Below, in pieces: positions 1 to 31,771 of a DNA stretch of 36,218 nt. How positions within the stretch are numbered: the first letter of the stretch is position 1; each line of letters opens with the position of its first letter. The stretch is from Chitinivibrionales bacterium (GTDB lineage Bacteria > Fibrobacterota > Chitinivibrionia > Chitinivibrionales > FEN-1185): contig DATJAL010000060.1 in the NCBI GenBank assembly GCA_035516255.1, forward strand, positions 1-36,218. Reading direction: 5' to 3'. Position numbers and translations under genes: made by a program. A model generated the notes under the pieces. The model had not been told where the DNA came from. It saw only the letters and a list, made by a program, of their open reading frames with translations, and searched no databases.

Positions 1-425
<425 letters not shown>

Positions 426-497
426 GCTTTTTATTTACATCACAACGAAAGTGTGCTTCATTATCAGGATATATTCAAAGATAATCTTTGAAAAATT

Positions 498-613
498 TCT
501 GGTGGTTATTGCGCGGAGGAAACACCCGTTCCCATACCGAACACGGCAGTTAAGCTCCGCCGCGCCGATGGTACTGCATGGGCAACTGTGCGGGAGAGTA
601 GGTCGCCGCCAGA
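498..613 (+). rRNA. 5S ribosomal RNA
   Basis: This 116-base gene has the universal CCCATACCGAACACG block of loop B/helix III at about 530-545 and GGGAGAGTAGGTCGCCGCC at the 3' side. The terminal helix closes between 498-506 and 605-613 with G-U pairs, which fixes both ends. It follows 23S rRNA directly and is followed by a hairpin terminator, so it ends the rrn operon. Two degenerate relatives of this gene occur elsewhere in the window (1430-1511 and 31653-31762). Confidence 0.96.
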
Positions 614-625
614 TTAAATTACGGG

Positions 626-657
626 CCCTCGCTTCTGAGAAGAGACGGGGGTTTTTT
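626..657 (+). terminator. rrn operon terminator
   Basis: A GC-rich hairpin (CCCTCGCTTCT...AGAGACGGGGG) followed by TTTTTT ends the rRNA operon. It is an imperfect member of the terminator family that recurs throughout the window. Confidence 0.8.
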
Positions 658-702
658 ATTTGGGTTCGATTGCCTAAAAGCGGTGATGGAAATTTTACGA
701 TA

Positions 703-731
703 TTGACAAAAAGGGCATGATGCTCTATATT
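703..731 (+). promoter_or_regulatory. sigma70-type promoter, TTGACA-N17-TATATT
   Basis: The -35 box TTGACA (703-708) and -10 box TATATT (726-731) are 17 bases apart. It lies 46 bases behind the rrn terminator and should drive the small gene at 888 with a leader of about 150 bases. The same TTGACAAAAA start and spacing recur in the two 5S-derived copies. Confidence 0.8.
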
Positions 732-887
732 CTTAGGCAAGGAGGAGCGTTTTAAAACCTTGACTACCGCAGGAAATAAAGCGGGAAAGGCGCAGATTGT
801 CAAACAGTTGCTTTGGGGAATCCGAGGATGGTAGAAAAAGAAAATTCATATTAATATTTGGGACATTCACGTATTCAGGGAGGTATT

Positions 888-1250
888 ATGCTCGCAAAAT
901 CTTCAAAGACAAAAAGCCCGGCCGTTTCGGCCGACAGAATTTTCCCCGGAATCTGGCGGAACACATGGACCCACGGCGCCGAATCCGATTTTGAGATATT
1001 TGAAATCAGGAACGGGGTCGAGTACCACATCCTAAAGAAGGAGAAGGTTAACGGCCGCTGGGTGCACGACCATCATCGTTTCAACATAAAAATCCTGGAA
1101 GTCAACGAAAAAGAGGTGTCGTTCTCAAAGCAGTTCGTCGGCGAGGACAGGCCGGAAATTGTCAACCGGCACATGAAACTGATCGGGCCCGGCAGGATCG
1201 AAGGAATAGAAAGCGACAGCGCGCAGGTGGTCTATACGAGGGAGGAATAG
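888..1250 (+). CDS. hypothetical protein, 120 aa
   Basis: I do not recognise a family. The product is small, charged and soluble, with no signal peptide or membrane segment. A longer reading from 858 is possible, but the ATG at 888 follows GGGAGG at about 878-883 at good spacing and gives MLAKSSKTK, so I chose it. The middle (ITF/WRN...ESDFEIFEIRNGVEYHILKK) and the run of short beta-like segments suggest a compact beta-rich fold. It sits alone between its own promoter (703-731) and a terminator (1304-1328), so it is probably monocistronic. Confidence 0.7.
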   Translation: MLAKSSKTKSPAVSADRIFPGIWRNTWTHGAESDFEIFEIRNGVEYHILKKEKVNGRWVHDHHRFNIKILEVNEKEVSFSKQFVGEDRPEIVNRHMKLIGPGRIEGIESDSAQVVYTREE

Positions 1251-1303
1251 GCGGACGGGTGGGTCATGTGACCTTTGATCCAAAATAATTCTCCTCCGTG
1301 TTC

Positions 1304-1328
1304 CACGGCCGTTCCGGCCGTGTTTTTC
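1304..1328 (+). terminator. intrinsic terminator
   Basis: A perfect 7-bp stem, CACGGCC/GGCCGTG, with loop GTTCC and a TTTTT run lies 54 bases behind the stop codon of the 888-1250 gene. It is a different hairpin from the recurrent CCCCGC family. A partly matching stretch without the first stem arm occurs at 4840-4872. Confidence 0.85.
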
Positions 1329-1429
1329 CTGCTACAATCCATTCAAGCTAAAGTTTTTATTTCGGCATAGGAGATTAATTAGGTTATTCAAAATTTGGAA
1401 TCTGGAATTTGTAATCTGATCTTTAAAAT

Positions 1430-1511
1430 TTCCAGTGGTTGTTGCGCAGAGGATACGGCCGCCGACGGTACTGCATGGGCACCTTTCGCGGGAGAGTAGG
1501 TCGCCGCAAGA
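1430..1511 (+). pseudogene. degenerate, internally deleted 5S rRNA copy
   Basis: This segment aligns with the real 5S gene. It keeps the 5' arm (CAGTGGTTGTTGCGCAGAGGA) and the 3' half (GGTACTGCATGGGCAC, GCGGGAGAGTAGGTCGCCGC). It lacks about 34 internal bases, including the CCATACCGAAC block and helix III, so it cannot be a working 5S rRNA. The similarity extends upstream into the 23S-5S spacer (AATCT...TTT.AAAATTTCC) and downstream through the terminator and promoter, so a block of the rrn tail was copied, not just 5S. Confidence 0.85.
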
Positions 1512-1520
1512 TTAATATAA

Positions 1521-1558
1521 GGGCCCTCGCCTCTGTGGAGAAGCGTGGTATTTTATTT
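1521..1558 (+). terminator. degenerate copy of the rrn terminator
   Basis: GGGCCCTCGCCTCTGTGGAG...GCGTGG followed by TATTTTATTT matches the terminator behind 5S at 624-657 base for base in long stretches. Pairing is poorer, so termination efficiency is doubtful. Confidence 0.5.
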
Positions 1559-1598
1559 GATCTGCTTGACTAAAAGCGAAGAGAGAAATGTTGCATTA

Positions 1599-1627
1599 TT
1601 GACAAAAACGCTATTAATCCGTATATT
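1599..1627 (+). promoter_or_regulatory. sigma70-type promoter, TTGACA-N17-TATATT
   Basis: TTGACA (1599-1604) and TATATT (1622-1627) have a 17-base spacer. It is part of the duplicated 5S-terminator-promoter block and should drive the Tat-exported protein at 1854 with a leader of about 215 bases. Confidence 0.8.
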
Positions 1628-1853: not shown

Positions 1854-2978
1854 ATGAAGATTTCACGCAGGTCGTTTATAAATTCCTCGGCGGCTGCCGC
1901 GGCGGCAATGGCATTGCCGGCCGGCTTCGCTCGGACAATACTCGCCGGCGATGCTTCGGAAAAAACGGCGTTTAAGCCCGGTCCGGGCAACAAATGGCCG
2001 GGACGGGTGGTCATCAATTTCAACAAGAACGCGGTTACACTCAACGGGATAAACCCAACCGCGGTACCGTCGGTCATCGGCGACATGGTCAACGCATCCA
2101 TTCTAAAGCTCACCGGGCAGACCGCCGTTGGGGCAGCCTGGAAAGCGGTATTTCCTTCATCGCTCGCCGCGACGTCGACGATTGCCGTCAAAGTTCCCCT
2201 CGGATGCGCCAACAGCCTTATCGCGCCCCACTGGTCATCGGTCCGGGCCATCACCGACGGCCTGCAGCAGATGGATTTCAATGGGGCCAGGATCCCCGCC
2301 GCGAATATCACTATCTACGATATGCGGTGCCGCAATAATCTTTCCAATTACGGTTATACGGCCGCAAATTTCCCCGGCATTAAACTGGTGTACGACACCA
2401 TGGGGACAGGTTATACCGATGGAGCGCGGGGAAGGCAATACGCAACGTCACTGCGCTCAACGTTTCTCATCAATGTGTTCCGCCCCGGCGGGCATGGAAA
2501 GGCTTATGAAGGGTTTACGCTTGGATTCAAAAACCATTACGGCTCCTATGAAGTGGACCATAATGAGGAGACCGCGCCCGGCTATCTCCGCGACATCAAC
2601 GGCACCGGCGTCGTCTTTGACAAGACCGTGCTCTCAATCTGCGTGGGGATTTTCGGGGCGCAGGAGGCGTCGGGAAGCCCCCATTCGGCATCAGTCAATT
2701 ATTACAATTACGCGTCCTCCATTGACGGTTCAATTGCCAATGCCATGGTCCCGCCGACGACAATAATCATGAGCACCGATCCCGTCACGGCCGAAATGCA
2801 GGCCATAAAGATGATGCGGCTCAATAAAAAGCCGGCGGCCGCTTTCGGCGCCAACGATATGCCTCGGTACCTGAGGGCCTCGGCAGGAATCACCGGCGCG
2901 CTGCCGGACAAGGCCCTTAATTTCGGCGTCATCGACGAAAAAAAGATGGACATCCGGCGGATCATCAACGGAGTTTAG
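1854..2978 (+). CDS. Tat-exported DUF362-like protein, 374 aa
   Basis: The N-terminus MKISRRSFINSS followed by an alanine-rich hydrophobic stretch is a twin-arginine signal peptide, so the protein should be exported folded. The body looks like DUF362. It has a strand ending AVKVPLGCAN, then an HWSSVRAITDGLQQM helix and an ITIYDM strand. Near the C-terminus IIMSTDPVTAEMQAIKMM resembles the family's 'gtDPVavDav' segment. No cysteine cluster for an iron-sulfur centre is visible. The start is set by AAGGAG at 1843-1848, five bases before the ATG; the longer reading from 1761 lacks a signal peptide and a ribosome site. The reaction is unknown for this family. It is alone in its unit, and I see no clear terminator behind it. 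Confidence 0.8.
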   Translation: MKISRRSFINSSAAAAAAMALPAGFARTILAGDASEKTAFKPGPGNKWPGRVVINFNKNAVTLNGINPTAVPSVIGDMVNASILKLTGQTAVGAAWKAVFPSSLAATSTIAVKVPLGCANSLIAPHWSSVRAITDGLQQMDFNGARIPAANITIYDMRCRNNLSNYGYTAANFPGIKLVYDTMGTGYTDGARGRQYATSLRSTFLINVFRPGGHGKAYEGFTLGFKNHYGSYEVDHNEETAPGYLRDINGTGVVFDKTVLSICVGIFGAQEASGSPHSASVNYYNYASSIDGSIANAMVPPTTIIMSTDPVTAEMQAIKMMRLNKKPAAAFGANDMPRYLRASAGITGALPDKALNFGVIDEKKMDIRRIINGV

Positions 2979-4994: not shown

Positions 4995-5480
4995 ATGAAT
5001 AGAAAATTTGCTGTCATTCTTCTAGTCATGTGCACCATCGCTTGTTCATTTGTTTTTGCTCAAAACGTTAATAAAAAAACGGAGAAACCCAAAAAGAAAT
5101 CGGTTCTCATCGTTAGAGATTCCAGCGGCCTGGAAATTGCCGTCACCAGAATATTGAACGATAGTCTCTCAAAACTGGGATGCCGTGTAAAGGAAGCCGA
5201 GCTCTCAAACATAAAAAAAGAAAACGCGTCATCGTATAAGATTTCAATAGTATTCAGCGCAATAAAGGCCGGAAACGAAGTTGACCCCCGGATACAAAAT
5301 TTTATCTCCTCCAAGGCCGACACCCTTTCAAAAGTCTTTTTGTTCACGGTTTACGGCGGTCTCTATGACGAACAAGGCAAAAAGGTTGATGCGACGACCG
5401 AAGCAACCAAGGCGCTCCATCCGGATTTGATTGCACGTCAAATATTGCGGTCGGTAAAGCCGGCCGTGTTGCCTCCGTGA
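4995..5480 (+). CDS. exported flavodoxin-like protein, 161 aa
   Basis: A signal peptide (to about residue 23, ending FVFAQ) precedes a domain whose order matches the flavodoxin fold: SVLIVRDSSGLEIAVTRIL (strand, loop, helix), ISIVFSAIKAG, a helix with PRIQNFISSK, and KVFLFTVYGG. The spacing and the 'S.IKAG...FI' pattern recall protoporphyrinogen-oxidase-type Flavodoxin_5 proteins. The phosphate-binding loop is DSSGLEI rather than the usual T/S-x-T-G-x-T, so FMN binding is doubtful. The start at 4995 follows GGAG at about 4983. Function unknown; fold call moderate. Confidence 0.65.
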   Translation: MNRKFAVILLVMCTIACSFVFAQNVNKKTEKPKKKSVLIVRDSSGLEIAVTRILNDSLSKLGCRVKEAELSNIKKENASSYKISIVFSAIKAGNEVDPRIQNFISSKADTLSKVFLFTVYGGLYDEQGKKVDATTEATKALHPDLIARQILRSVKPAVLPP

Positions 5481-5535
5481 TAACCTCCGCTCATTCGTTT
5501 TTCCCAAAGATTTACAGGCGAAATTCCGAACAAAA

Positions 5536-5564
5536 TTGACAAGTGCGTTTGGAATACCTATATT
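5536..5564 (+). promoter_or_regulatory. sigma70-type promoter, TTGACA-N17-TATATT
   Basis: TTGACA (5536-5541) and TATATT (5559-5564) have a 17-base spacer. It drives the lipoprotein gene starting at 5622, with a short leader of about 50 bases. Confidence 0.8.
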
Positions 5565-5621
5565 CTCCCATGAAGCCGTTCTTCAAAATAGATGCTTATC
5601 ACCCTGCAAAAGGAGGTCGCT

Positions 5622-6176
5622 GTGTCTCTTAAAAAGATAGTCACCGTTGCAGCAGCGTTGATCGTGCTTGCGGGATGCGGAAATCCATTCATGCTAAAAA
5701 TCGAAACAAAACCAGATATGCATGCCAACGCTTCCAAGGCGGCACTGGTAATTTACCGCAGCACTTCGTTCGGACCCCGCATGCCGGTTCACAACTTTAT
5801 CGACGGGAAGTATATCGGGACAACGGTGGGGAAGTGCTTTTTTATCTCCAAGGTCGACCCGGGGTCGCGCTACGTGGTCGGTGATGCAGAAAACAAGGCT
5901 TGCGCGAAAATCAATTTCGAAGCAGGCAAAGTGTATTATCTACAGCAAATTCTCTACTTCGGGTTCAAGTCCGCACGCACTGGATACAGCGGATCGAATC
6001 CGAAAGATTTTGAAGATCAGCTGAAAGAGGGGATGGATTATATCGCAATCAATCCGGCGGAAAAGGCCCCGATGCTTAATGAAGGGGACTATAAGCAGAC
6101 CATCGCCGATTTTGAAAGGGAAGACAAAGAGGACCCGTCAAAGCATAAAGACACCGATTCGTTGCAGGGATACTGA
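5622..6176 (+). CDS. DUF2846-like lipoprotein, 184 aa
   Basis: Translation from GTG at 5622 follows a perfect AAGGAGGT at 5610-5617 and gives a signal peptide with lipobox VLAGC (Cys19). An upstream ATG at 5592 would put the ribosome site inside the gene and is rejected. The core, AALVIYRSTSFG...HNFIDGKYIGTTVGKCFFISKVDPGSRYV, matches the DUF2846 pattern: a beta sandwich with 'v.idg..ig.l..g.y....v.pG.h.v', followed by a strand-rich part and a charged C-terminal tail. Role unknown; the family is usually membrane-anchored in the periplasm. Confidence 0.8.
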   Translation: MSLKKIVTVAAALIVLAGCGNPFMLKIETKPDMHANASKAALVIYRSTSFGPRMPVHNFIDGKYIGTTVGKCFFISKVDPGSRYVVGDAENKACAKINFEAGKVYYLQQILYFGFKSARTGYSGSNPKDFEDQLKEGMDYIAINPAEKAPMLNEGDYKQTIADFEREDKEDPSKHKDTDSLQGY

Positions 6177-6220
6177 TCAGTGCAATTTTTTTGTGGAACA
6201 GGTGTCCTGAAATTCCAGGG

Positions 6221-6370
6221 TTTTCCCCCTCCGCGCCTGCCGGCGTTTCGCTGACGGGAACGGTCACCACCATGGAAATTTCCTGGCAGCCGGTCTCGGG
6301 CGCGACCTCTTACACCGTTTACGACACCAAGGACGGCACGACTCCCACCGCGCCAGTTTATCAAATGTCA
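6221..6370 (+). pseudogene. fibronectin type III domain remnant
   Basis: One frame encodes SPSAPAGVSLTGTVTTMEIS, then WQPVSGATSYTVYDTK, a clear fibronectin type III pattern with the core Trp and the GATSYTVY strand. The frame then runs into low-quality sequence and no start, signal peptide or partner domain is attached. It looks like the leftover of a larger secreted protein. Confidence 0.6.
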
Positions 6371-6454
6371 ATAAATGCCAAGCCGAACGAGGACAGGCGG
6401 TGGGTTCTTCTCCCGGCCCTCATGCGCCTATCACGCCGTCCGCGTGTCCTTGTT

Positions 6455-6483
6455 TTGACAAACAAACCTTTCTGCCTTAAGCT
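6455..6483 (+). promoter_or_regulatory. probable promoter, TTGACA-N17-TAAGCT
   Basis: A perfect TTGACA (6455-6460) is followed after 17 bases by TAAGCT, a weak -10 box. Its position 50-75 bases before the ATG at 6532 fits a promoter. Confidence 0.45.
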
Positions 6484-6531
6484 ATTTTCAACGGCGCACC
6501 CCGGCAGATTATTTAAAAAGGCGGTCGCATC

Positions 6532-8091
6532 ATGCGGTTCCGTTCCTTTCAATCCGGCGTTCCACTTCTTTCCGTGACTGCCGCTCTCATTCTCTTTTCA
6601 TGCACACCGCACCGCGTCGTGAAAACCGTTGAACAGGCGCCGTCACTCTGCGGCAACACCGACCTGCCGATCTGGTCCCCTCTCACCGATTTCGACGCCA
6701 TGGCGCTCGGCGGCGAGGAAAAGGCGCGGGCAGGCGATCCCGACGCGCTGCTTGCGCTTGCCCTGTTCGCTTCGGGCGATGTGCGCGACCAGGCGACCTG
6801 GGAGGCGTATCACGGCCGTGTTCTTACTTTTGTGGAAAAGGTGCGTCGTGACGCGGGCGGGGACACTTCGGATTACGGCCGCGGCAAGGTTCTTTTCGAC
6901 GGCGTGTGCCGCGAATTTTTCAGGCACCGCTTCGTCGATGACGAGCTCAAGGGATACGATTTCGCGCAGTCAAAGCTTTCCGGGGTGTTCGCGTCGGCGA
7001 AATTCAACTGCGTCAGTTCGGCGCTCCTGTACGTGGTTTGCGCCCGCTATTTGGGCCTGAATGTCAACATCGCGGTCATTCCTTCCCACGTGTTCGTGCA
7101 GCAGACGTTGCGGGACGGGAGAAAAATAGACATCGAGACCACCGGCAAGCAGGGATACGATTTCAAGAACGACAAGAGCTCGTTTGAGCGCTACGACGGG
7201 AACTGGTTCAAGGCGCGCGGCCTGGTGATGCCGACGTTCGGCGACTATACAAAACGCGAAATCATTTCCCCGCTCGAGGCGGTGGTCCGCAACATGATCA
7301 ACCAGCACACCGAGGCGGGCAGAATGGCCGACGCCGACCGCTACCGCCTGCTCGAGGCCATGGGGTTTTGCTATCCCGGCGTAAAGGAATATGAACACTG
7401 CCGCCTTGTCGCGCTGTACAACGAAGTGATAGAATTGCAGCGGACGGAGGACTATCCGTCAATGGCGCGGTTCTTTAAGAAAATGGCGCCCGTGGTCCAT
7501 GCGATCGATTCGGTCAGCGGAAGCGACACGTCGTTCGGCTACATGGTCGCTTCGCTTCGGCTGAGTCATGCCTTCGCGATTTTCAAGACCACGGGCGCTC
7601 CAGCGGCGGCGGACACCGCCGCCGACATACTGGCTCATGCCTCCGACGCCCTGCCCGACTATAAAAAGCTCGTCAACAACATCGGCGTCATCGTGCAGCT
7701 GATCATTGATAAAGGCACAAAGGAAAACAGGTTCGAGGAGTCAGAGGCGGTCGCACAGCGGTTTTCCCGCTATCCCGACCTCCTGCCGTGGATGCGGTAT
7801 CTTGAGTCGTATATTTACGGAAGCTGGGCGGCGCGGCTCTGGCCTCAAAAAGACTGGAGCACGGTGATACGGCTTTTGCAAAAGGCAATTTCGCTTTCGG
7901 TCAAGGACGAGGACCGAAAGGCCCTGGTCTCAAACATCAAGGGCGCATATTACAACTGGACCGTGGAACTGTATAACGGGAAGAGGCTTGCGGAATCGTT
8001 GAACCTGCTCGAAGCATGCGAGAAAGATTTCGGCCTTGACGGCACCGCCATTGAGCTTAAGAAGAGAATAGTTGCGGCGATGAGCCAATAA
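6532..8091 (+). CDS. lipoprotein with transglutaminase-like (SirB1-type) domain, 519 aa
   Basis: A signal peptide ends in LFSC (Cys24), so this is a lipoprotein. Residues about 110-215 form a transglutaminase-like core: FNCVSSALLYVVCARYLG with candidate nucleophile Cys160, IPSHVFVQ with His186, and KIDIETT around Glu202. That arrangement is known from the SirB1/Transglut_core2 family, where it is often linked to TPR repeats. The C-terminal half is helical, with repeat-like segments (SWAARLWPQKDWSTVIRLLQ, YNGKRLAESLNLLEACEK) that fit TPR-type helices. The likely site is the periplasmic face; the partner is unknown. The start has a weak ribosome site (AAAGGCGG). Confidence 0.8.
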   Translation: MRFRSFQSGVPLLSVTAALILFSCTPHRVVKTVEQAPSLCGNTDLPIWSPLTDFDAMALGGEEKARAGDPDALLALALFASGDVRDQATWEAYHGRVLTFVEKVRRDAGGDTSDYGRGKVLFDGVCREFFRHRFVDDELKGYDFAQSKLSGVFASAKFNCVSSALLYVVCARYLGLNVNIAVIPSHVFVQQTLRDGRKIDIETTGKQGYDFKNDKSSFERYDGNWFKARGLVMPTFGDYTKREIISPLEAVVRNMINQHTEAGRMADADRYRLLEAMGFCYPGVKEYEHCRLVALYNEVIELQRTEDYPSMARFFKKMAPVVHAIDSVSGSDTSFGYMVASLRLSHAFAIFKTTGAPAAADTAADILAHASDALPDYKKLVNNIGVIVQLIIDKGTKENRFEESEAVAQRFSRYPDLLPWMRYLESYIYGSWAARLWPQKDWSTVIRLLQKAISLSVKDEDRKALVSNIKGAYYNWTVELYNGKRLAESLNLLEACEKDFGLDGTAIELKKRIVAAMSQ

Positions 8092-9603: not shown

Positions 9604-11301
9604 ATGAGGAATAAAAAATTCATGGGGATGATCTGGCTCGCGACGGGCATCATCGGCGCTGCATCAGGTCAGAACGTGATTCAATCGGACCTTTCCGGCA
9701 CCGTGACCGATGCCAACGGTAATCCGCGCTCCGGAGCAATCGTCATGCTCGTAAATGCCGGGTTGATTGACTCAACGGATGACAACGGAAATTTCACGCT
9801 CCAGGGCGATGTCGGCGTGCGGCACCCCGCTTCTTCGGTGATTGCGAAAAACGAAGCCGCCATACGTGGCAACAAGCTCTTTTTCACCATTCATTCTGTC
9901 AGGACGCCGGTTGCGGTTGAGCTGTTCGATTGCCTCGGCAGGATGCTTTACAACATACCGCCCGCGGATTTCTCGCCCGGCAGCCATTTCATCTCGATCG
10001 TGCCTCCCGCGTCTCCCGCGATGGCCGTGAGCGCCATCGCCCGGGTCTTCATCGGGCATGACGCGATGATTTTCCGTTTTCCAGGCCTTGGCTCCGCGCC
10101 CGCGCAAGGCGCGCAGGTTCCGGGCCGTCCCGCGCAACTTTCAAAGACGCTGGCCGTGGTCGACACGCTGCTGGTGTCGGACTTCAATTCGATGACCGTG
10201 AGGGTTCCTCTCACCCAATATGTCGCGTCCGCGCTCAACGTCACCGTTCCGGACGACAATAGAACCAACGAACTGATTCTCAACGATGTCATCGTGATAG
10301 GAGGCGCCGGCAATACGGTGACTCGATCGACCGACGAGATCTACCGTGCGCCGGGAGGGGATTCGGGCACCACCCTGTCGTTCTTTGGAACGCGAACGAC
10401 CGAAGCGCCCGATTTCGTGGACGTCGATTACGTGCAATTCACGAATCCAAACGGCCAGTGGCCCTACCGGATCGTTTACAGCCGCGAGTTGCTTCCGATC
10501 AACTGGTCCATCGACTCGTTTACCATCGTCGTCACCGCCAACGGCGAAGACAGCATCAATCCCTATCAGGTGGTGCACCTGTTGTACGGCGCCGACACCG
10601 TGACCGACACCTTCACCCTGTGCCTGTACCCGGGCGACCTCCACGTGCTGCTTGGCAAATGCAAAACGGCGGTCCCCGCTTTCGACACCATGCCGGTCCA
10701 CGCTTTCTTCGCCTCAAACGGCATCAACCAATACAACGATCTGCTGCGCCTGGCATACACCCGGTCGGCCAACACCGCGTATTACCGGTACCTGTGCGTC
10801 GTATTCTCCACTGCCCAGGCGTGCATCGAGATGACAAGGGTCTTTCCTTCGCATTTTGCCAAGGTCAAGCGCTCCCTGGCCGCGGCAAAGAGAAGCGGCG
10901 AGTTCGGCCCCACCACCATCGCGGAAGACCTGCTGAAGACGATGCTCAAGAGCGTGCTCAAGGAAATCGCCCGCGACCTGCTGGCAAAACCGCCCTCGGG
11001 GATCGGCGCCCTGCTCTGCGAAGGCGCGGATGACAACTGGGACGAATGCAAATACCAATACGTGCCTTTCCAGGGAACCGCCACCGGCTCGGTCCCGCCC
11101 GACGCGATAACCAAGTGCATGAGCATTTGTTCGTGGGTGACGCTCGCGTGCTTTACGAACATTTGCATGCCCATGACCCTTGAAGAGGCCGAGGCCGGCG
11201 ACATCAAGCAACAGCTCGCGAATTTCGATCAGCAGTACTTTGGGGGCATTTTCACGAGCAGCGGTTTGTTGAAGACGGCAAAGGTAAAGAGACTCCGGTA
11301 A
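9604..11301 (+). CDS. secreted protein with carboxypeptidase-regulatory-like domain, 565 aa
   Basis: A signal peptide (cleavage near AASGQ, residue 23) precedes a CarboxypepD_reg-like fold (about 29-70: LSGTVTDANGNPRSGAIVML...DDNGNFTL). Next comes an internal module at about 90-125 (LFFTIHSVRTPVAVELFDCLGRML) that resembles the sorting-tail fold normally found at C-termini in this genome. The remainder is a beta-rich then helical domain I do not recognise, with several cysteines in the last 100 residues (TKCMSICSWVTLACFTNICM). The protein at 35560 has the same opening order of modules, so they are paralogs. There is no C-terminal sorting tail. It is probably surface-exposed; function unknown. 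A strong terminator follows at 11328. Confidence 0.75.
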   Translation: MRNKKFMGMIWLATGIIGAASGQNVIQSDLSGTVTDANGNPRSGAIVMLVNAGLIDSTDDNGNFTLQGDVGVRHPASSVIAKNEAAIRGNKLFFTIHSVRTPVAVELFDCLGRMLYNIPPADFSPGSHFISIVPPASPAMAVSAIARVFIGHDAMIFRFPGLGSAPAQGAQVPGRPAQLSKTLAVVDTLLVSDFNSMTVRVPLTQYVASALNVTVPDDNRTNELILNDVIVIGGAGNTVTRSTDEIYRAPGGDSGTTLSFFGTRTTEAPDFVDVDYVQFTNPNGQWPYRIVYSRELLPINWSIDSFTIVVTANGEDSINPYQVVHLLYGADTVTDTFTLCLYPGDLHVLLGKCKTAVPAFDTMPVHAFFASNGINQYNDLLRLAYTRSANTAYYRYLCVVFSTAQACIEMTRVFPSHFAKVKRSLAAAKRSGEFGPTTIAEDLLKTMLKSVLKEIARDLLAKPPSGIGALLCEGADDNWDECKYQYVPFQGTATGSVPPDAITKCMSICSWVTLACFTNICMPMTLEEAEAGDIKQQLANFDQQYFGGIFTSSGLLKTAKVKRLR

Positions 11302-11327: not shown

Positions 11328-11360
11328 AGCTCCCGCCTCCGGGAAGAGGCGGGGGCTTTT
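11328..11360 (+). terminator. intrinsic terminator, recurrent family
   Basis: A 12-bp stem (AGCTCCCGCCTC/GAGGCGGGGGCT, one G-U pair) is followed by TTTTATTAT. It ends the 8761-9604 unit. No consensus promoter follows at the usual distance. Confidence 0.9.
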
Positions 11361-12127: not shown

Positions 12128-12190
12128 CAATGGTTTGCCTCATTACAGGCTATTGTGCATGAAAGCCTGCCGCCCCAAAAAAATTAATAA

Positions 12191-12232
12191 GCCCTCCGCC
12201 TTAGAAAAGAGGCGGAGGGCTTTGTTTTTTTT
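12191..12232 (+). terminator. intrinsic terminator, recurrent family
   Basis: GCCCTCCGCCTT pairs with AAGAGGCGGAGGGC around an AGAA loop, followed by TTTGTTTTTTTT. It ends the 11585 gene. Confidence 0.92.
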
Positions 12233-12411
12233 AGTCATTATAAGGAACAATCGCAAATTTAACAATATTGACAAGAAGGACATCAAATCCGTTACGGTCC
12301 TGTGAATCGGGGCGACCGGTGCTTGGTGAAAGGAAGGAAATGCTGCATAGAGGCAAGCGTGAGTCCCGGATGGATTTAGGGATGGGGGAAAAGGGCAATT
12401 CGTGACGATTA

Positions 12412-15223: not shown

Positions 15224-16282
15224 ATGAAAAGGTTTCTTTCCGAGTTGGCGCTGTTGACCGTTCTTTTAATTCCGTTCGCCGTTTCTGCCGATACAACCTT
15301 TACCTGTCCGGAATGTTTTCCCGCAGTTGCTGATACGTGGCCTCATACCGGTAAATATGGCGCAGGCACGCGGCATTACTTCATGCACAATTACTGGCAT
15401 AAAGATCTCACCGTTCACGTGAACGGCAACGGCGGCGCCGGTTGGACAAACCTCACCTTCACGCTGAAAATCGGGCACGACACAATCATTGAGATCCCAA
15501 ATGGCTGGGCATCTGCAAGAATCTGGGGCCTTTGGGATCCCAAATATGCCAATGGGCCGTTTACCCTCGCCGAAATCACGTCGCATGCCGGCTGGGGGTG
15601 CGATTGGTATGATGTAAGCCTGGTTGACGGATACAACCTTCCCATGTTGTATTATCCGCTGCCGGGAACGTTCCCGCCCGATAATCCCAAACTGGACTCG
15701 ACCTACGGCCGGCAGGGATGGACGTGTGGAGGGGAGGATGACTGCACAAAAGACCTGTATCTGACCGCACCGGCGTCAATGTTGAATTTGGATACCATTA
15801 ACGGCGTACTCGACACCAACGGGTTTTATTGCAGTGGTGATGTTGGTTCACCCTGCGCTGCTCTAAAAAAGGCTGCTTGTCCAACTTCGTACAGTTATCC
15901 TTACGACGATCCTCACAGCCTGTTTACCTGTCCATCGCCGACCGTGAATGCCGCAGGCACCGCGGTCGGACCAGACTATATTCTTGATTTCGGACTGCCG
16001 CCGACCTCTCTTGTTGACAACAACAAGAAGCTGGCGATAAACCGTACTATTCTCGGGAACGCATCAATTACAATAACCAGGAATAAAGAACTGAAATACC
16101 TCTATGGCGGACAAGGACCCGCGTGGCTGGAAATCTATTCCTGTTCAGGAAAACTGATGCTTCGGACCGCGGTCAACGATTATGGAACCATTGCCGTTCC
16201 GCAGCTGAACAGAGGCGTGTATATTGTTTCTCTCAAGTCGGACCGTGTGCTGGCGACAAAGCAAATGCTGGTTTCGCGGTAA
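15224..16282 (+). CDS. thaumatin-like protein with C-terminal sorting tail, 352 aa
   Basis: A signal peptide (to about residue 22, AVSAD) precedes a thaumatin/PR-5 domain of about 235 residues. Landmarks are HNYWHKDLTV, ASARIWG, GPFTLAEI, WYDVSLVDGYNLPM, then AACPTSYSYPYDDPHSLFTC and DYILDFG; the plant family has the same order. The acidic-cleft set (Arg, Glu, Asp, Asp, Asp) maps to Arg99, Glu117, Asp130, Asp135 and Asp228/229. Nine cysteines are in this domain, fewer than the 16 of large plant members. The last 60 residues (LYGGQGPAWLEIYSCSGKLM then GVYIVSLKSD) form a type IX-like sorting tail. In plants such proteins bind or hydrolyse beta-1,3-glucans, and some permeabilise fungal membranes; here the role is inferred only. 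The start is fixed by AAGGGGGAG. Confidence 0.85.
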   Translation: MKRFLSELALLTVLLIPFAVSADTTFTCPECFPAVADTWPHTGKYGAGTRHYFMHNYWHKDLTVHVNGNGGAGWTNLTFTLKIGHDTIIEIPNGWASARIWGLWDPKYANGPFTLAEITSHAGWGCDWYDVSLVDGYNLPMLYYPLPGTFPPDNPKLDSTYGRQGWTCGGEDDCTKDLYLTAPASMLNLDTINGVLDTNGFYCSGDVGSPCAALKKAACPTSYSYPYDDPHSLFTCPSPTVNAAGTAVGPDYILDFGLPPTSLVDNNKKLAINRTILGNASITITRNKELKYLYGGQGPAWLEIYSCSGKLMLRTAVNDYGTIAVPQLNRGVYIVSLKSDRVLATKQMLVSR

Positions 16283-16320
16283 AAAGGCCTATAGAGTAAG
16301 TGTCGGCGTGATTGCAAATA

Positions 16321-16355
16321 CCCCCGCTTCCGAATAGAGGCGGGGTTTTGTTTTT
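16321..16355 (+). terminator. intrinsic terminator, recurrent family
   Basis: CCCCGCTTC and AGAGGCGGGG pair around CGAAT, followed by TTTTGTTTTT. It separates the two thaumatin-like genes, so they are independent units. Confidence 0.9.
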
Positions 16356-16384
16356 CCGCTCTTGCAGCCTGGGCACGTTCTTAT

Positions 16385-16413
16385 TTGACAAATACCTACG
16401 TAAACTTTATATT
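16385..16413 (+). promoter_or_regulatory. sigma70-type promoter, TTGACA-N17-TATATT
   Basis: TTGACA (16385-16390) and TATATT (16408-16413) lie 30 bases behind the previous terminator and about 240 bases before the second thaumatin-like gene. Confidence 0.8.
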
Positions 16414-16527
16414 TTCGATTATGGCATGCCGCTGGAAATGGAGAAAGGCGCGCTGGAAAACGCCGGAAACGTTTCCGGCATAAATAAAGGAAAAACGGAA
16501 AAAGTCGCAGCTGTCAGGAACGATGGA

Positions 16528-22870: not shown

Positions 22871-25690
22871 ATGCTGACTACGTGCAGGCTTGCGGCAATA
22901 GGTATTGGATTGGTTTTTGTGATGTCCGTGGTTCATGCCGAAGTATATACGCCTGAACCGTCGAACCGGGTGACCATCAATTTGGGGGTCACGCCCTGGA
23001 AATTCACAAAAGGCGATCCCGTGAACGCCCAGACAGCCGGTTTTAGTGATGCCGGATGGACGGACGTGGGCGTACCGCATTGTGTCAATGAAGACGAAGC
23101 CTACACCAACATGATCAGCGGCGGCGGCAACCAGTATGGCGGCACCATGTGGTACCGCAAGCACTTTACGCTTGATGCGTCGTACTCGAACCGCAAGGTG
23201 TTCGTCGAGTTCGAAGGCGCGAACACCGGCGCCGCCGTGTACATCAACGGCACGTTCATCCCCGGAAACAGCGCGATCAACCCTCTTTGCACGCATGTGA
23301 ACGGCTTCATTCCCTTTGTCGTTGACCTCACGCCGTACGTTCAGTTCGGCGGTGCGGACAACGTCCTTGCAGTCAAGGTGAACAATAACGGCGGCACCTA
23401 TGTCGAGGCGATTTCCGGGGCGTTCCGCTTCGGCCAGGCCGACGGCGGACTGGTGCGCAAGGTTTGGATGCACATCACCGACAAGGTGTACGTGCCGGTC
23501 AACGTATATTCGGTTGTCAAGAACTGGGGCACGTGCGTGGGCACGACCGCGGCTTCGGACGCCTCGGCGACCGTTCGCATTATGACCAACGTGCAGAACG
23601 ACAACGCGACGGCCCAGACCGTGACGGTCACCACCAAGGTCTGCGACGCGCAGGACAATGTCGTTCTCTCTCAGCAAAGTTCGCCCCAGTCCATTGCCGC
23701 GAACTCGTCGTACGTATTCGACCAGTCGGGCGACATCACCAATCCCAAGCTGTGGTATCCCGCCAACAGCACGTACGGCACGCCGTACATGCACAAGGTG
23801 TATCACATCGTGCAGGTCAACGGCGCCACCGTCGACGTGTTCACGTCGCCGCTCGGCATATGCAAGGTCACGTGGGACCAGAATTACCCCTATTTCAACG
23901 GGAAGATGCATTATGTTTGGGGTGCTTCGGGCCGGTACAATTATCCTGCGCTCGCCTCCGGGGTCCCCGACGAGCTCCTGTGGAAGGATGCCAAGCTCAC
24001 CGCGGATTGCGGAGGGAGGGAATGGCGTCCGGGGCACTCCACCTGCACGCCCGAATTTGTTGACGCATGCGACGCGTTCGGCGTGCTGATCGATCAGCCC
24101 AGCGGCGACGGCGAGGGAGCATTCCAGGCGAACAACATCACCCAGAACATTATTATCCTTAAGGGCGAACTGCACCGCGACATGATCGTCCGCGACCGCA
24201 ACCATCCCAGCATCCTCATGTGGGAGGTCACCAACGCGGGCATCATCGACAGCCTGTCGCGGGCGCTCAAGGCGCTTGCGCACCAGTGGGACCCCATCAT
24301 GCTCCGGGCGCAGTCCGACCGGTCGTATCTCGACGGCTGCAAGGCCGGCATCTCCGACGTCATCGAATGTTCATCGGCCGGCTGCGAGGCCGGGCAGAAA
24401 TTGAATTCCGCGTGCACGAATTTTCCCGCCTTCGGCGCCGAGGCGTGGGACGCGGGTCCCGCGCGCGCGTCGCGGTTCGCCTGGGACTACGAAATCCAGT
24501 TCGCTGCCTCGTATCTGATAAACTGGAAAAACGCCGTGGCGGCCAAGGCCTTCGGTCTTGCGCACTGGTATCTTGCCGAGGCGCCTGGCGAGGTGGGGCC
24601 GTTCCTCGGAGACACCCGCACGGCGCGGTCGTTCGGGTCGTCGATCATGGACGCGAACCGCCTTCCCAAACTGCTTTACAAAATCTACGGTGTCGCGTGG
24701 GTTCCCTTCTCGCAAAGGCCCGGCATCGTCATCGCGCACCACTGGAACCGCAGCGGCACGGTGCGCGTCAACGTGTTCAGCAACTGCCCCAAAGTCCGGC
24801 TGCTGCTGAACGGAACCAGTCTCGGGGATAAAGTGCCGCTCGGGCCCTCGGGAACCTCGGGAGACGACAGGTCGCAAACGTCAACCACGCTGCCGTGTCA
24901 GGCCTGGTACGACAACGTGACCTGGGCGGCCGGGACGCTGCTCGCCGAGGGACTCGATTCGACGGGCAAGGTGGTGTGTACCGATCAGAAAGTCACCGCG
25001 GGCAACCCCGACCACATCGACCTGACCGTCGACCCGAGGCTCGTCAAGCCCGACGGCTCGGTGTTCAACATCACGGCCAACGGCACCGACTGCGCGACGC
25101 TGCTTGCAAAAGTCGTTGATGCCAACGGCAACCTGTGCCCGACCGCGACCAATATCGTCACGTTTTCGGTCACCGGCCCCTGCGTATACCGCGGCGGCAC
25201 CGATGCGTTCGTGACCGACGGCCAGCCGGTGGGATACCATTCGCCGCTTGATCCGAATCTCTCGGCGGAGGGCGGCATGTGCCACGTCGCGGTGCGGTCG
25301 ACCTTTACGCCGGGAAACGTCACGGTAACGGCCGCGTCCGCCGGGCTCGGCAGCGGCACCGCCTCGTACACCATTGTGCCGCTGTCGGCGGGACAGACTT
25401 CCCTGGCGATGCCGGAAGGCGCCAACGGGTCGCGCGCCGCCGCATTGCACGGCTTTGATGTAACCGGGACCACGATAAAGTATTATTTGACAAGACCGTC
25501 CATGGTCTCCTACGCCGTGCTGTCCGCGTCCGGCAGAACGGTGTTCAGCCAGAAGCCGACGGCGGCGCACGCCGGATGGACCGTCGCCCGGATCCCCGGC
25601 AGCGCGCGCATGGCCGCGGGCATGTACTTTGTGCGCATGGTTGTTGACGGGAAGGAAAATGCGGCGAAGAGATTTTTCGTGGTGAGATAG
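22871..25690 (+). CDS. glycoside hydrolase family 2-like protein with sorting tail, 939 aa
   Basis: A signal peptide (to about residue 23) is followed by the GH2 order. A sugar-binding jelly roll (about 35-210) has TPWKFTKGDP, GTMWYRKHFTL, VFVEFEGANTGAAVYINGT and DNVLAVKV. An Ig-like domain (about 215-325) and a TIM barrel (about 330-610) follow, then a DUF4982-like domain (HWNRSGTVRVNVFSNCPKVR, LLLNGTSLG), a GH2 C-terminal domain (PDHIDLTVDPRLVKPDGSVF) and a type IX-like tail ending AAKRFFVVR. In the barrel, RDRNHPSILMWEVTNAG has Ala456 where GH2 enzymes have the acid/base Glu of the Asn-Glu pair. Glu524 (GAEAWD) could be the nucleophile. Activity is therefore uncertain. Beta-galactosidase-like enzymes are the closest known relatives. 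The ribosome site GGGGGGAG is close to the ATG. Confidence 0.85.
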   Translation: MLTTCRLAAIGIGLVFVMSVVHAEVYTPEPSNRVTINLGVTPWKFTKGDPVNAQTAGFSDAGWTDVGVPHCVNEDEAYTNMISGGGNQYGGTMWYRKHFTLDASYSNRKVFVEFEGANTGAAVYINGTFIPGNSAINPLCTHVNGFIPFVVDLTPYVQFGGADNVLAVKVNNNGGTYVEAISGAFRFGQADGGLVRKVWMHITDKVYVPVNVYSVVKNWGTCVGTTAASDASATVRIMTNVQNDNATAQTVTVTTKVCDAQDNVVLSQQSSPQSIAANSSYVFDQSGDITNPKLWYPANSTYGTPYMHKVYHIVQVNGATVDVFTSPLGICKVTWDQNYPYFNGKMHYVWGASGRYNYPALASGVPDELLWKDAKLTADCGGREWRPGHSTCTPEFVDACDAFGVLIDQPSGDGEGAFQANNITQNIIILKGELHRDMIVRDRNHPSILMWEVTNAGIIDSLSRALKALAHQWDPIMLRAQSDRSYLDGCKAGISDVIECSSAGCEAGQKLNSACTNFPAFGAEAWDAGPARASRFAWDYEIQFAASYLINWKNAVAAKAFGLAHWYLAEAPGEVGPFLGDTRTARSFGSSIMDANRLPKLLYKIYGVAWVPFSQRPGIVIAHHWNRSGTVRVNVFSNCPKVRLLLNGTSLGDKVPLGPSGTSGDDRSQTSTTLPCQAWYDNVTWAAGTLLAEGLDSTGKVVCTDQKVTAGNPDHIDLTVDPRLVKPDGSVFNITANGTDCATLLAKVVDANGNLCPTATNIVTFSVTGPCVYRGGTDAFVTDGQPVGYHSPLDPNLSAEGGMCHVAVRSTFTPGNVTVTAASAGLGSGTASYTIVPLSAGQTSLAMPEGANGSRAAALHGFDVTGTTIKYYLTRPSMVSYAVLSASGRTVFSQKPTAAHAGWTVARIPGSARMAAGMYFVRMVVDGKENAAKRFFVVR

Positions 25691-25715
25691 GCCGGCGGCT
25701 CGTTGAAAATAATGG

Positions 25716-25750
25716 CCCCCGCTTCCGGAAGAGGCGGGGGTTTTTTGTTT
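25716..25750 (+). terminator. intrinsic terminator, recurrent family
   Basis: CCCCCGCTTC and GAGGCGGGGG flank CGGAA, followed by TTTTTTG. It ends the first GH2-like gene. Confidence 0.92.
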
Positions 25751-26991: not shown

Positions 26992-27847
26992 ATGCGTACT
27001 ATTTCAGGTATCATCCTTTCGACAGCGCTTTTTCTTTCTTCCTATGCCGGTTCGGTCACGTTGCCGAACAACTCATGGGTAAGTTTTGAACCCGCGCCTC
27101 CATATGATTTTTCCTATACTGTAAATCAAAATTCCTCGGACCCACCATCATGCTTGTCCGGCGACCCTGATTTCTCCTGGAATTATTACGAAGGCTGCAC
27201 CTGCATGTGCTTCTGCTGCCCGACTCTTGCGGTCTCCTCCAAAAGGCCCTTTTACGTGTCAAGGAAGCCTTGGAATTGTATCGCCGCGATAAGCCGATAC
27301 CGCCATTCTTGCAGATACAACGGCTTTTACCAAAGTTAACCTGTCCGGCACCAGTTGTTCCTCCGCGTCGGCGGTTCTTTCGGGCGCTTTAAGCGTCATT
27401 CCGGGCGGCCCGGACACCCTCTACACCCGTCTCCTCGTTTTTCGGACAAAGTATAACGATTATTTGCCCCTGCGGTATATTCCCCTAAAAATCGACAGGG
27501 TATTTTCCAGCAATCCCTATTGCCCGTGGGGCACTTCCACAGCATACGACAGCATACAGGTGATCTTTGGCAATTCACTGTCTTGCACGGAAGTTTTTGC
27601 AAGGGTCGCTCCGGGTTCCCGGAGCGTACTTCGCGTTTCGACAACCGGGGCAGGGTATGTGATTTCAGGGTTTGTTGCAGGCATGGGCAGTTTGGAAATC
27701 GTCAATGCCCAGGGAAAAACGGTGTATTGCCGGCCCGCGATTTCATCGTCATGTATAATCGGAAAGAATATTCTCGGGCCGGGGATCTATTTCGTACGGG
27801 TTTATTCACAGGCGGGAATTTCGTCGATGGTGCTGCCCGTGCATTGA
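26992..27847 (+). pseudogene. frame-disrupted secreted protein with sorting tail
   Basis: The first frame starts at 26992 behind a strong AAGGAGG, with signal peptide MRTISGIILSTALFLSSYAG and a cysteine-rich stretch (EGCTCMCFCCPT). It ends at 27339 in unnatural sequence. A second frame, open from just after an in-frame TAA at about 27291, reads ADTAILADTTAFTKVNLSGT, later IPGGPDTLYTRLLVFRTKYN, then a sorting tail (MGSLEIVNAQGKTVY and GPGIYFVRVYS) up to 27847. Signal peptide, middle and tail all look natural but lie in different frames. A frameshift near 27260-27295 is the simplest explanation; an assembly or sequencing error is possible. The family of the middle part is unknown. Confidence 0.7.
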
Positions 27848-27881
27848 GGGACGAGCAGGTCACCGCCCGATTGATCTGAGA

Positions 27882-27912
27882 CCCCGCTTCTGGAAAGAGG
27901 CGGGTTTTTTTT
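27882..27912 (+). terminator. intrinsic terminator, recurrent family
   Basis: CCCCGCTTCT and AGAGGCGGG flank a GGAA loop, followed by TTTTTTTT. It ends the frame-disrupted gene, showing that the unit once was an ordinary gene. Confidence 0.9.
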
Positions 27913-28259: not shown

Positions 28260-31055
28260 ATGAATTACTTAAAGTTCTTTGTGCTTATGCTTGCCGTTCT
28301 TTTTTTGTCAATGACATCCTTGCAGGCGCAGACCGACCAGGGCAACAGGGTGAAAATCAACTTTGGCGCCACGCCGTGGAAATTCTCCCGCGGTGATCCG
28401 GCCAATGCCCAGACCACGGGGTTCAGCGATGCGGCGTGGACCGACGTGGGGCTGCCGCACACCTGGAACGAGAACGACATTTACGTCAACATGGCCGCCG
28501 GCGGCCCCGCGCCGAACATGGGCGGCATCTCCTGGTATCGCAAGCATTTCACGCTTGACCAGAAATATTCCGACAAGAAGATATTCGTGGAGTTCGAGGC
28601 ATCGCATATAGGATGCCAGGTCTATATCAACGGCACGTTGATAAAAGGCAACAGCCAGAGAAACCCCAACGCGACGCACGTCGTGGGGTTTTTGCCGTTC
28701 ATCGTCGACCTTACTCCCTATGTCACGTTCGGCGGGGCCGACAACGTTCTCGCGGTGCGCATCGCGGACGGCGCCGCGTTTTTCTCGACCCCGACCTTTT
28801 CCTACGATTTCCGGTTCGGCCAGGGCTGCTACGGTTTGTGGCGGCCGGTGTGGATGCACATCACCGATAAACTGTATATCCCGGCAAACGTTTATTCTGT
28901 TGTCAATAACTGGGGAACCTGCGTGGGCGCCGTAACGGCCAGCGACGCCTCGGCCACGGTGCGCGTTCTGACCCACGTTCAGAATGAGTACACCACCGCG
29001 CAGAACGCCACGCTCGTCACCGAGATCGTGGACGCTTCAAATACCATCGTCTCCACCCAGACGAGCACGCAGTCCATCGACGCGGGGCAGAGCTTTGTGT
29101 TCGACCAGACCCACACCGTTGCCAACCCGCACCTGTGGTATCCGGCCGCCAGCACCTTTGGCGGGCCGTACATGTACAAGGTTTATCATATTGTCAAGAT
29201 CGGCGCCACGACCGTCGACGCGTTCAAGAGCCCGCTCGGCATCCGCGTCATCACTTGGGACAACAACGGGCTGCCGGTCATCAACGGACATATGCACCAG
29301 TTGTGGGGCGTGGGTTCGCGCTACGATTATCCCGCGCTCGCCACCGCGGTTCCCGAGGAACAGCAGTGGCGCGACGCCAAAATCTGCTCCGAATACGGCG
29401 GTCGGCTCTGGCGTCCCGGCCATTCCACCGGAAGCCCGGAGTTCACCGCCGCGTGCGACGCGTACGGCATCATGCTCATGCAGCCCAGCGGCGAGCTCGA
29501 GGGGAATTTCGCAACGGCGCAGATCGCGGCGGGTCCCGATACAATGTACAAACGGATCCTCAAGACCGAAGTTCACCGCGACATGATCATCCGCGACCGC
29601 AATAATCCTTCCATCCTTTCGTGGGAGGTCAGCAACGGCCCCATCGACGGAACTTTCGAACAGTATCTGCGCGACAGCATCCAAAAAGTCTGGGACCCGA
29701 TAAGTTATCATGGGATGTCGGACCGGGGATACGGACAGGCCGCCACGAACAACATTGCCGAAATATGGTCGTGCTCCGGGCTGGGATGCGGGATCGGATT
29801 CAAAAACGGACATGCGGCGAATCCCATATGGGGCGCGGAGGAGTGGGACTACACGCACCGCACCTACCGATGGGATTACGCAAACGAACTCAGCTTTGCC
29901 CAGGTATTTGTCCAGAACTGGTACGGGTATCAGCAGGCGAAATGTTTCGGGCTCGCGCACTGGTATTTCTCCGAGACGCCCGGTGAAACCGGGCTCGGCA
30001 GGGGCTTCCAGGAGGCGATGTTCGACCAAAACCGCATTCCCAAAATGCTCGCGAAAATTTACCGGGCCAACTGGCTGCCGTATTCTGTCAAGCCGGTGGT
30101 AAGCCTCGCCAATCACTGGAACCGCTCCGGCGCGGTTCAGGTCAACGCCTTCAGCAACTGCCCGAAAGTCAGTCTGCTGATCAACGGCCAGCAGCAGGGC
30201 AGTCCCGTGGTTCCCGCGGCCGGAGGCGGCAGCCTCATGCCTTCGCAATGCCAATGGAACGTGACGTGGGCCTCGGGGACGCTGCGCGCCAACGGGCTTG
30301 ACGCGAACGGCAATGTCGTCTGTTCCGATTCGTTAAGGACGGCGGGAAATCCCGACCATATTCTCTTGACCGTGGAGCCGCCGCTGGTGAAACCGGACGG
30401 CAGTCAATTCCAGATCACCGCCAACGGCTCGGACGCGGCGTTCATTCTGGCCACGGTCGTCGACGCGCAGGGCATCTGGTGTCCCACCGACAGCCACAAC
30501 ATCACCTTCGCGGTTTCCGGGCCGGGCACCTATCGGGGCGGCGCGGACGAGGACGTCAAGCCGGGCGCCATCACGGTCCACGCGCCGGGCGATCCCGAGC
30601 TGTCGGCCGAGGGCGGCATGTGCAAGATAGCGGTGCTTTCGACCTTTACAACCGGCACGGTCACGGTGACCGCGACGTCGCCGGGACTCGGCCAGGGCGC
30701 GGCATCGTATACGGTTGCTCCCGCCGTCACGGAAGTGCCGATTTTTGACACGCCGGTGAACGCGGTGATCGGCTCGCCGGCGCAGCGCGCGCTTCCGGAA
30801 TGCCACATCTGGTCCAACGGCAAAACCATACGGTATTTCATCGGTCAGGCAATGCCGGTATCGGTTGAAATTCTCGGCGCCAACGGCAGGATGATCAAGA
30901 AAGTATCGGAAAGCCGTTGCGGAGCGGGCTGGCACCAGGTTTTCCTGGGTGATCAGTCGCGCGGCTTCGCGCAGACCAGCGGCGTGTATTTCATCCGTCT
31001 CTCATCGGGCGGCAATGATCTTGCGGTCCGGCGCGTGGTGCTGATGGGGAATTAG
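28260..31055 (+). CDS. glycoside hydrolase family 2-like protein with sorting tail, 931 aa (paralog)
   Basis: This is the paralog of the 22871 gene, with the same domain order from signal peptide to tail. Shared landmarks include TPWKFSRGDPANAQT, SWYRKHFTLD, VYINGT, the barrel segment HRDMIIRDRNNPSILSWEVS, the DUF4982-like HWNRSGAVQVNAFSNCPKVS and the tail SGVYFIRLSSGG...VRRVVL. The acid/base position after the conserved Asn459 is Gly460 instead of Glu, as the first copy also lacks it. Glu527 (GAEEWD) may be the nucleophile. Because both copies lost the same residue, the loss predates the duplication or is tolerated. It may act as a lectin-like binder or use another residue. GGGGGAG lies seven bases before the ATG. 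Confidence 0.85.
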   Translation: MNYLKFFVLMLAVLFLSMTSLQAQTDQGNRVKINFGATPWKFSRGDPANAQTTGFSDAAWTDVGLPHTWNENDIYVNMAAGGPAPNMGGISWYRKHFTLDQKYSDKKIFVEFEASHIGCQVYINGTLIKGNSQRNPNATHVVGFLPFIVDLTPYVTFGGADNVLAVRIADGAAFFSTPTFSYDFRFGQGCYGLWRPVWMHITDKLYIPANVYSVVNNWGTCVGAVTASDASATVRVLTHVQNEYTTAQNATLVTEIVDASNTIVSTQTSTQSIDAGQSFVFDQTHTVANPHLWYPAASTFGGPYMYKVYHIVKIGATTVDAFKSPLGIRVITWDNNGLPVINGHMHQLWGVGSRYDYPALATAVPEEQQWRDAKICSEYGGRLWRPGHSTGSPEFTAACDAYGIMLMQPSGELEGNFATAQIAAGPDTMYKRILKTEVHRDMIIRDRNNPSILSWEVSNGPIDGTFEQYLRDSIQKVWDPISYHGMSDRGYGQAATNNIAEIWSCSGLGCGIGFKNGHAANPIWGAEEWDYTHRTYRWDYANELSFAQVFVQNWYGYQQAKCFGLAHWYFSETPGETGLGRGFQEAMFDQNRIPKMLAKIYRANWLPYSVKPVVSLANHWNRSGAVQVNAFSNCPKVSLLINGQQQGSPVVPAAGGGSLMPSQCQWNVTWASGTLRANGLDANGNVVCSDSLRTAGNPDHILLTVEPPLVKPDGSQFQITANGSDAAFILATVVDAQGIWCPTDSHNITFAVSGPGTYRGGADEDVKPGAITVHAPGDPELSAEGGMCKIAVLSTFTTGTVTVTATSPGLGQGAASYTVAPAVTEVPIFDTPVNAVIGSPAQRALPECHIWSNGKTIRYFIGQAMPVSVEILGANGRMIKKVSESRCGAGWHQVFLGDQSRGFAQTSGVYFIRLSSGGNDLAVRRVVLMGN

Positions 31056-31090
31056 ACATTCAACTTGTCAAGTGAAGATTTGATTGCAGG

Positions 31091-31121
31091 CCCCCGCTTC
31101 GGAAAAGAGGCGGGGGCTTTA
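31091..31121 (+). terminator. intrinsic terminator, recurrent family
   Basis: CCCCCGCTTC and AGAGGCGGGGG flank GGAAA, followed by CTTTAAT. It ends the second GH2-like gene. Confidence 0.85.
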
Positions 31122-31169
31122 ATATCGGTTATCGCTTGACTAATAGCCATGATTGGAATTCTGCCGCTG

Positions 31170-31198
31170 TTGACAAAAATTTCAGGAGGCCTTATTTT
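31170..31198 (+). promoter_or_regulatory. sigma70-type promoter, TTGACA-N17-TATTTT
   Basis: TTGACA (31170-31175) and TATTTT (31193-31198), spacer 17, lie 49 bases behind the terminator. The gap shares the text CTTGACTAA.AGC with the 5S-derived block at 1565-1577. Confidence 0.75.
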
Positions 31199-31310: not shown

Positions 31311-31616
31311 ATGAATCAATACAATCTTGATGGTATTATCGTCGGCGTTTTGGCATTCTTGATTATCGGCCTGTTCCATCCGATTCTCATTAAGAGTGAG
31401 TACTATTTTGGGACTCGAATCTGGCCAGCGTTTGCCGTCGCCGGGGTTGCTGTCCTCATTGTCTCAGGCTTTGTCCAAAATTTTTCTTTCAGGTCAATTT
31501 TGGCTTTCACCGGATGTACACTCCTATGGTGTATCGTCGAGCTTTTTGAACAAAGAAAGCGGGTAGAGAAAGGGTGGTATCCGCAGAATCCTAAACGAAA
31601 GAAGTCATCCGGTTGA
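31311..31616 (+). CDS. DUF4491 family membrane protein, 101 aa
   Basis: The sequence matches the DUF4491 pattern throughout: LDGIIVGVLAFLIIGLFHPI, then LIKSEYYFGTRIWPAF, a second hydrophobic stretch (VAGVAVLIVSGFV), a third (ILAFTGCTLLWCIVELFEQ) and the conserved RVEKGWYPQNPKRK end. It should be an inner-membrane protein with three membrane segments. Function is unknown for the family. Length agrees with the usual 95-100 residues. The ribosome site is weak. Confidence 0.92.
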   Translation: MNQYNLDGIIVGVLAFLIIGLFHPILIKSEYYFGTRIWPAFAVAGVAVLIVSGFVQNFSFRSILAFTGCTLLWCIVELFEQRKRVEKGWYPQNPKRKKSSG

Positions 31617-31762: not shown

Positions 31763-31771
31763 TAAAGTTGA

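Follow-up and report, generated by a model that had tools for sequence, protein, structure and literature searches.

Repeated, decaying copies of a ribosomal RNA operon tail lie between unrelated genes downstream of the operon in a Chitinivibrionales genome

Why should the end of an rRNA (rrn) operon recur, in altered form, directly in front of a gene for an exported protein? The window analysed here, meaning the whole stretch of 36,218 nucleotides (contig DATJAL010000060.1 of assembly GCA_035516255.1, Chitinivibrionales bacterium), opens with the last part of such an operon. Downstream of the 23S end, block A consists, in this order, of the 5S gene, a terminator, the motif CTAAAAGCG and a promoter. 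An initial annotation, made from the sequence alone, described positions 1405-1627 as a second copy of about 480-731 and suggested that the block had moved as a unit and that such cassettes spread strong, growth-linked promoters. Table 1 lists the operon end, this second copy (block B) and the related elements found along the rest of the contig.

Table 1. Operon end, tail copies and associated genes in the window
Feature	Position	Strand	Evidence or remark
3' end of 23S rRNA	1-428	+	Rfam RF02541; contig begins within gene
5S rRNA of A, intact	498-614	+	Rfam RF00001, 106.7 bits; fold -45.5 kcal/mol
rrn terminator of A	620-656	+	Hairpin and T-run
CTAAAAGCG motif of A	674-682	+	Between terminator and -35
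Promoter of A, TTGACA-N17-TATATT	703-731	+	Exact match
Gene for 120-aa protein between A and B	888-1250	+	Pfam: none
23S-5S spacer copy of B	1385-1430	+	Nearest to spacer of same-genus relative G001
Decayed 5S of B	1431-1512	+	36-nt gap
Terminator of B	1519-1557	+	Stem weakened
Promoter of B, TTGACA-N17-TATATT	1599-1627	+	Exact; ahead of Tat-signal protein gene
Gene behind B for a secreted protein with Tat signal	1854-2978	+	Pfam PF10518
rrn-type terminator	11329-11356	+	After gene 9604-11301
rrn-type terminator and degraded promoter	12188-12308	+	Model R1, E 4.6e-6
rrn-type terminator and promoter TTGACA-N17-TATATT (16385)	16316-16425	+	Model R1, E 2.3e-4
rrn-type terminator	17764-17789	+	After second thaumatin-family gene
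rrn-type terminator	25714-25740	+	After GH2 gene 22871-25690
Decayed 3' half of 5S, and terminator	27822-27912	+	72% identity, E 5e-5
Copy D: terminator-CTAATAGCC-promoter, without 5S	31090-31198	+	Ahead of DUF4491 gene 31314-31616
Block C: spacer remnant, decayed 5S, terminator, degraded promoter	31620-31880	+	71% identity, E 4e-15
Lipoprotein-like gene behind C	32002-32730	+	Pfam: none
Degraded rrn-type terminator core and promoter (35398)	35323-35439	+	Model R1, E 4.2e-4

Block B is clearly a copy of A, as had been proposed. In a DNA search of the genome itself the two matched with 80% identity over 151 columns (E 7e-30), and their local alignment score of 197 compares with a maximum of 35 among 300 dinucleotide shuffles. 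The alignment passes through the 23S-5S spacer, 5S, terminator, CTAAAAGCG and promoter in the same order, and the promoter described for both copies is exact in each. Two details required correction. Comparison with the spacer of the relative places the left edge of B near 1385 instead of 1405, and the deletion in its 5S, put at about 34 bases, is a gap of 36 nt. The gene behind B, unrelated to the operon, does encode a Tat signal. Among the relatives of this protein in named genomes (three loci, in Fibrobacter sp. and Chitinispirillaceae metagenome-assembled genomes (MAGs)) none has an rrn tail upstream, so the linkage of this promoter with the Tat gene is not conserved. An AT-rich TTTGGAATCTGGAAT repeat occupies window positions 1386-1427 and is also seen at L074 2541-2573 and L110 504-547; within the genus it occurs in 23S-5S spacers and at other sites.

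The self-search that would have left B as a solitary copy instead found several more (C, the copy at 27.8 kb, D and others). Beyond B, the contig carries block C and about eight more rrn-type terminators, and all copies in the window are on the + strand. The 5S of C (31647-31763) is nearly full length and decayed. The outline of the terminator can still be made out, and the promoter of this block (GTGACA-N17-TATGTT, 31852-31880) remains in register; the alignment to A reaches the -35. The 27.8-kb copy overlaps the 3' end of the preceding reading frame, and the score of its 5S part alone was matched by none of 1,000 shuffles. By homology to the 5S of the adjacent operon and its flanks, B, C and the 27.8-kb copy are 5S pseudogenes. 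Rfam, however, recognises only A, with no 5S match for B or C even at E<=1, and the predicted folding energy of the decayed copies is -25 kcal/mol against -45 kcal/mol for the intact 5S. The shuffle test gave no significant 5S remnant upstream of the terminators at 11329, 16322 and 17764. A further candidate from the own-genome search (C44:39888-39927; 40 nt, 85%) was rejected as too short and as overlapping a galT-like coding sequence and stop codon.

Some pieces may have travelled in another way. Copy D stands immediately after a GH2 gene, as does a piece on another contig of this genome (C18:8333-8451) that follows a different GH2 gene, likewise comprises terminator and promoter without 5S and is 80% identical to D. 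This pair probably moved together with the GH2 gene. The 16.3-kb element sits between two tandem thaumatin-family genes, and a promoter-like TTGACA-N18-TATATT (25812) lies behind the terminator at 25.7 kb. The two terminator pairs behind paralogous genes may have spread with those genes.

How far are these elements confined to the neighbourhood of the operon? A search of the whole genome (4.28 Mb) for the terminator core, allowing up to two mismatches, gave seven sites. Five are on this 36-kb contig, all on the + strand. With a hairpin finder, six of the eight terminators in the window are rrn-like (five of seven when the operon's own is left out) compared with three of 73 in 304.5 kb elsewhere. 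This contrast (5/7 versus 3/73, Fisher p 5e-5) is conservative because some of the control contigs were picked for holding matches. We also used a covariance model of terminator and promoter (R1, trained on A, B, C, D and the C18 piece). Seven of its eight best matches in the genome fall on this contig, which represents 0.85% of the genome; four are training copies. The non-training matches clearly above background (12188-12308, 16316-16425 and 35323-35439) are all here and all on the + strand. Applied to G001, the model found the rrn tail of that genome (E 8e-18), all further matches being at background level. REP- and MITE-type repeats are also repeated intergenic sequences containing a hairpin, but those are dispersed genome-wide in both orientations, whereas here one contig predominates, only the + strand is used on it, and the origin lies in the rrn tail.

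Terminators and promoters might alternatively have come to resemble each other through composition and selection, with A and B the only true duplicates. TTGACA-N17-TATATT is indeed common across the genome, and GC hairpins with CUUC..GAGG arms evolve easily. Such convergence is nevertheless improbable given the 5S remnants at B, C and 27.8 kb, the concentration of the terminator family on this contig and the restriction of CTAAAAGC with a downstream TTGACA to four places.

The promoter itself deserves separate consideration. Judged by its sequence, that of A and B is the ordinary sigma-70 type of this genome (42 sites, compared with 2 for the reversed control), and the growth-linked label is unsupported because it is of this type and unlike the rrn promoters. 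The latter, upstream of 16S (C29:125038 and C29:125168), differ from it in sequence, and the discriminators of A and B begin CTTAGG and ATCAGG and are not GC-rich. The specific feature lies between terminator and -35, not in the core promoter: CTAAAAGC with a TTGACA 12-30 nt downstream occurs only at A, B, the C18 piece and one other site. The idea of a rigid cassette that disseminates strong, growth-linked promoters is therefore correct in part. The block was copied whole on at least three occasions, and its terminator-promoter half more often. In six of the seven terminator-promoter cases (A, B, C, D and those at 16.3, 25.7 and 35.3 kb, the last read from the sequence) the distance from terminator to -35 is 40-53 nt, and unrelated genes follow the promoters. 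But the promoter is a common one and not that of the rrn operon, the piece that recurs most widely is the terminator rather than the promoter, and the spread is local, almost wholly on the contig downstream of the operon. As a whole, this explanation is quite improbable.

Relatives show comparable arrangements. In G001 (same genus) the rrn tail also has a terminator and promoter, followed by a different gene (GLUG repeats). Two partial 5S copies come next, 2.2 and 4.4 kb further downstream. Over 72 nt the nearer matches the 5S of G001 itself with 93% identity and consequently represents a separate event. B and C share a stretch of the G001 23S-5S spacer that A does not have, which makes an older form of the tail their probable source. 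Genome G032 has the order 5S-terminator-promoter-5S-terminator, with two 5S genes that are 97% identical; this is presumed to be the simplest starting state.

The layout is also found at both rrn loci of G014, which belongs to another family. Each has an intact 5S and terminator, then cargo, then a decayed 5S and terminator. The cargo at C131 is a 159-aa protein gene; at C44 of that genome it is a nucleotidyltransferase-HEPN pair (L135 194-938) directly behind the rRNA operon, a pairing typical of toxin-antitoxin systems. An additional decayed copy at C131 overlaps the 3' end of a GH9 gene. The first decayed copies of the two loci are 88% identical to each other around different cargo, and the tandem tail therefore probably predates the cargo. 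A genome-wide search of G014 found decayed copies only behind its two rrn loci. A similar layout has arisen separately in another family. No decayed copies were found in about two dozen other rrn tails of the phylum with usable downstream sequence (431 kb of rrn-downstream sequence in all); the process is therefore not a phylum-wide one. Since the copies are many, are clustered on this contig and have a layout that recurs in another family, a one-off local duplication is excluded.

An assembly artefact at a repeat must be considered for a fragmented, metagenome-type draft in which the contig begins within 23S. It is scarcely credible: the copies are 20-30% diverged and are found as far as 31 kb in from the end of the contig, and independent genomes show the same layout. 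In addition, the 23S flanks (C29:127312-127365 and window 431-481) are 87% complementary, as expected of the processing stem. Because this stem pairs across both contigs, C29 and the present contig (C60) fit together as one operon.

The explanation that we consider reasonably probable is that the rrn tail was duplicated serially and that genes came to be placed between the copies. The tail (end of the spacer, 5S, terminator and the sigma-70 promoter that follows) would have been duplicated repeatedly on the downstream side of the operon in direct orientation, leaving spare 5S-terminator units, some with a promoter, beside it. Genes from elsewhere would then have come to lie between the copies; we infer that tandem duplication came first and gene insertion second. 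The extra 5S copies would be redundant and would decay, the intact gene beside 23S being sufficient. Terminators, and often promoters, would be retained for insulating and driving the inserted genes. Those of the copies are presumably in use, and the operon tail seems to have provided ready-made stop and start signals for newly placed genes.

The chief alternative, which we regard as unlikely, is that genes were captured in one step through recombination at 5S. A gene with its own 5S and terminator would enter the conserved rrn tail by a single crossover, the donor being another rrn locus or another cell, and each step would add a gene and a tail and push older genes downstream. This predicts the same final layout. 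It also agrees with the lesser decay of the nearest copy, B, compared with C, 31 kb away, and with a short identity in G014: the same 15 nt, AATGGAATTAACATC, are present at the start of the C131 cargo (L134 ~186-200) and at the C44 junction between the HEPN gene and the decayed 5S (L135 ~945-960), where they are possibly a remnant of replaced cargo. On the other hand, the decayed copies of G014 share a derived form around different cargo, which favours a pre-existing tandem, and distance and decay are not strictly ordered, the copies at 27.8 and 31.6 kb being alike.

A broader proposal is that genes accrete at the downstream edge of rrn operons in this bacterial order. Each new gene would be placed immediately after 5S, its addition would leave a tail copy, and older genes would be pushed outward; the decayed tails would then record the order of gain and double as transcription boundaries. 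We advance this only tentatively and regard it as unlikely. On the usual view, each gene's terminator and promoter originate next to that gene. Here one locus, the tail of an essential RNA operon, appears to be the source of both, repeatedly, and from the decayed 5S copies one could work out when, and in which sequence, genes were gained next to the operon. Searches of the open-access literature found no account of rrn-tail copies recurring serially between genes.

Several known systems resemble parts of this arrangement. Tandem 5S genes end some rrn operons (for example, the second 5S of E. coli rrnD), and G032 provides an intact example of such an extra 5S downstream in direct orientation. 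In contrast, the copies in the window are decayed, are accompanied by terminator and promoter, are separated by unrelated protein genes and extend over 31 kb. Integrative elements at the 3' ends of tRNA and tmRNA genes leave partial gene copies, and share with the present case an intact RNA gene, variable cargo and a partial copy as a direct repeat. But the piece copied here is longer, with spacer, terminator and promoter, and the breakpoints vary where an attachment site would be constant: the 5S start is complete in B and C, is at nt 66 in the 27.8-kb copy and takes two other positions in G014. No integrase was found among the 15 window proteins scanned in Pfam, all of which are encoded to the right of the operon.

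An integron-like or other site-specific cassette array, with the 5S-terminator hairpin as recombination site, is a further alternative. As in integrons, unrelated genes are separated by related hairpins in one orientation; the hairpins closely follow stop codons, the cargo is variable and the repeat is species-specific. However, the hairpins here are rrn terminators, the cargo reaches 2.8 kb and has its own promoters, the breakpoints within 5S differ between copies, and no recombinase is present among the window proteins examined. We consider such an array highly improbable.

For the gene encoding the 120-aa protein between A and B there is a single orthologue, which in G001 lies elsewhere and not behind an rrn tail; DNA homology stops 12 nt past the stop codon. 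This is weak evidence for insertion because gene order between the present genome and G001 is poorly conserved overall. The scattering of G001 orthologues was not retained as proof of insertion, a control region being scattered as well.

Other observations concern individual genes and promoters. The tandem thaumatin-family genes (15224-16282 and 16654-17724) carry secretion-tail domains, and the pair is conserved in G001 (C7), there without rrn-type terminators. There are three GH2-family paralogues (window 22871-25690 and 28260-31055, and C18 (L108) 5238-8060) with 50-56% amino acid identity; two of the three are followed by closely similar terminator/promoter pieces, which suggests duplication of gene plus signal. 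Finally, the promoters at window 14964 and 35398, C18:8411 and C17:15977 have an unusually similar spacer, ATCGCAGGAAACCTTATATT.
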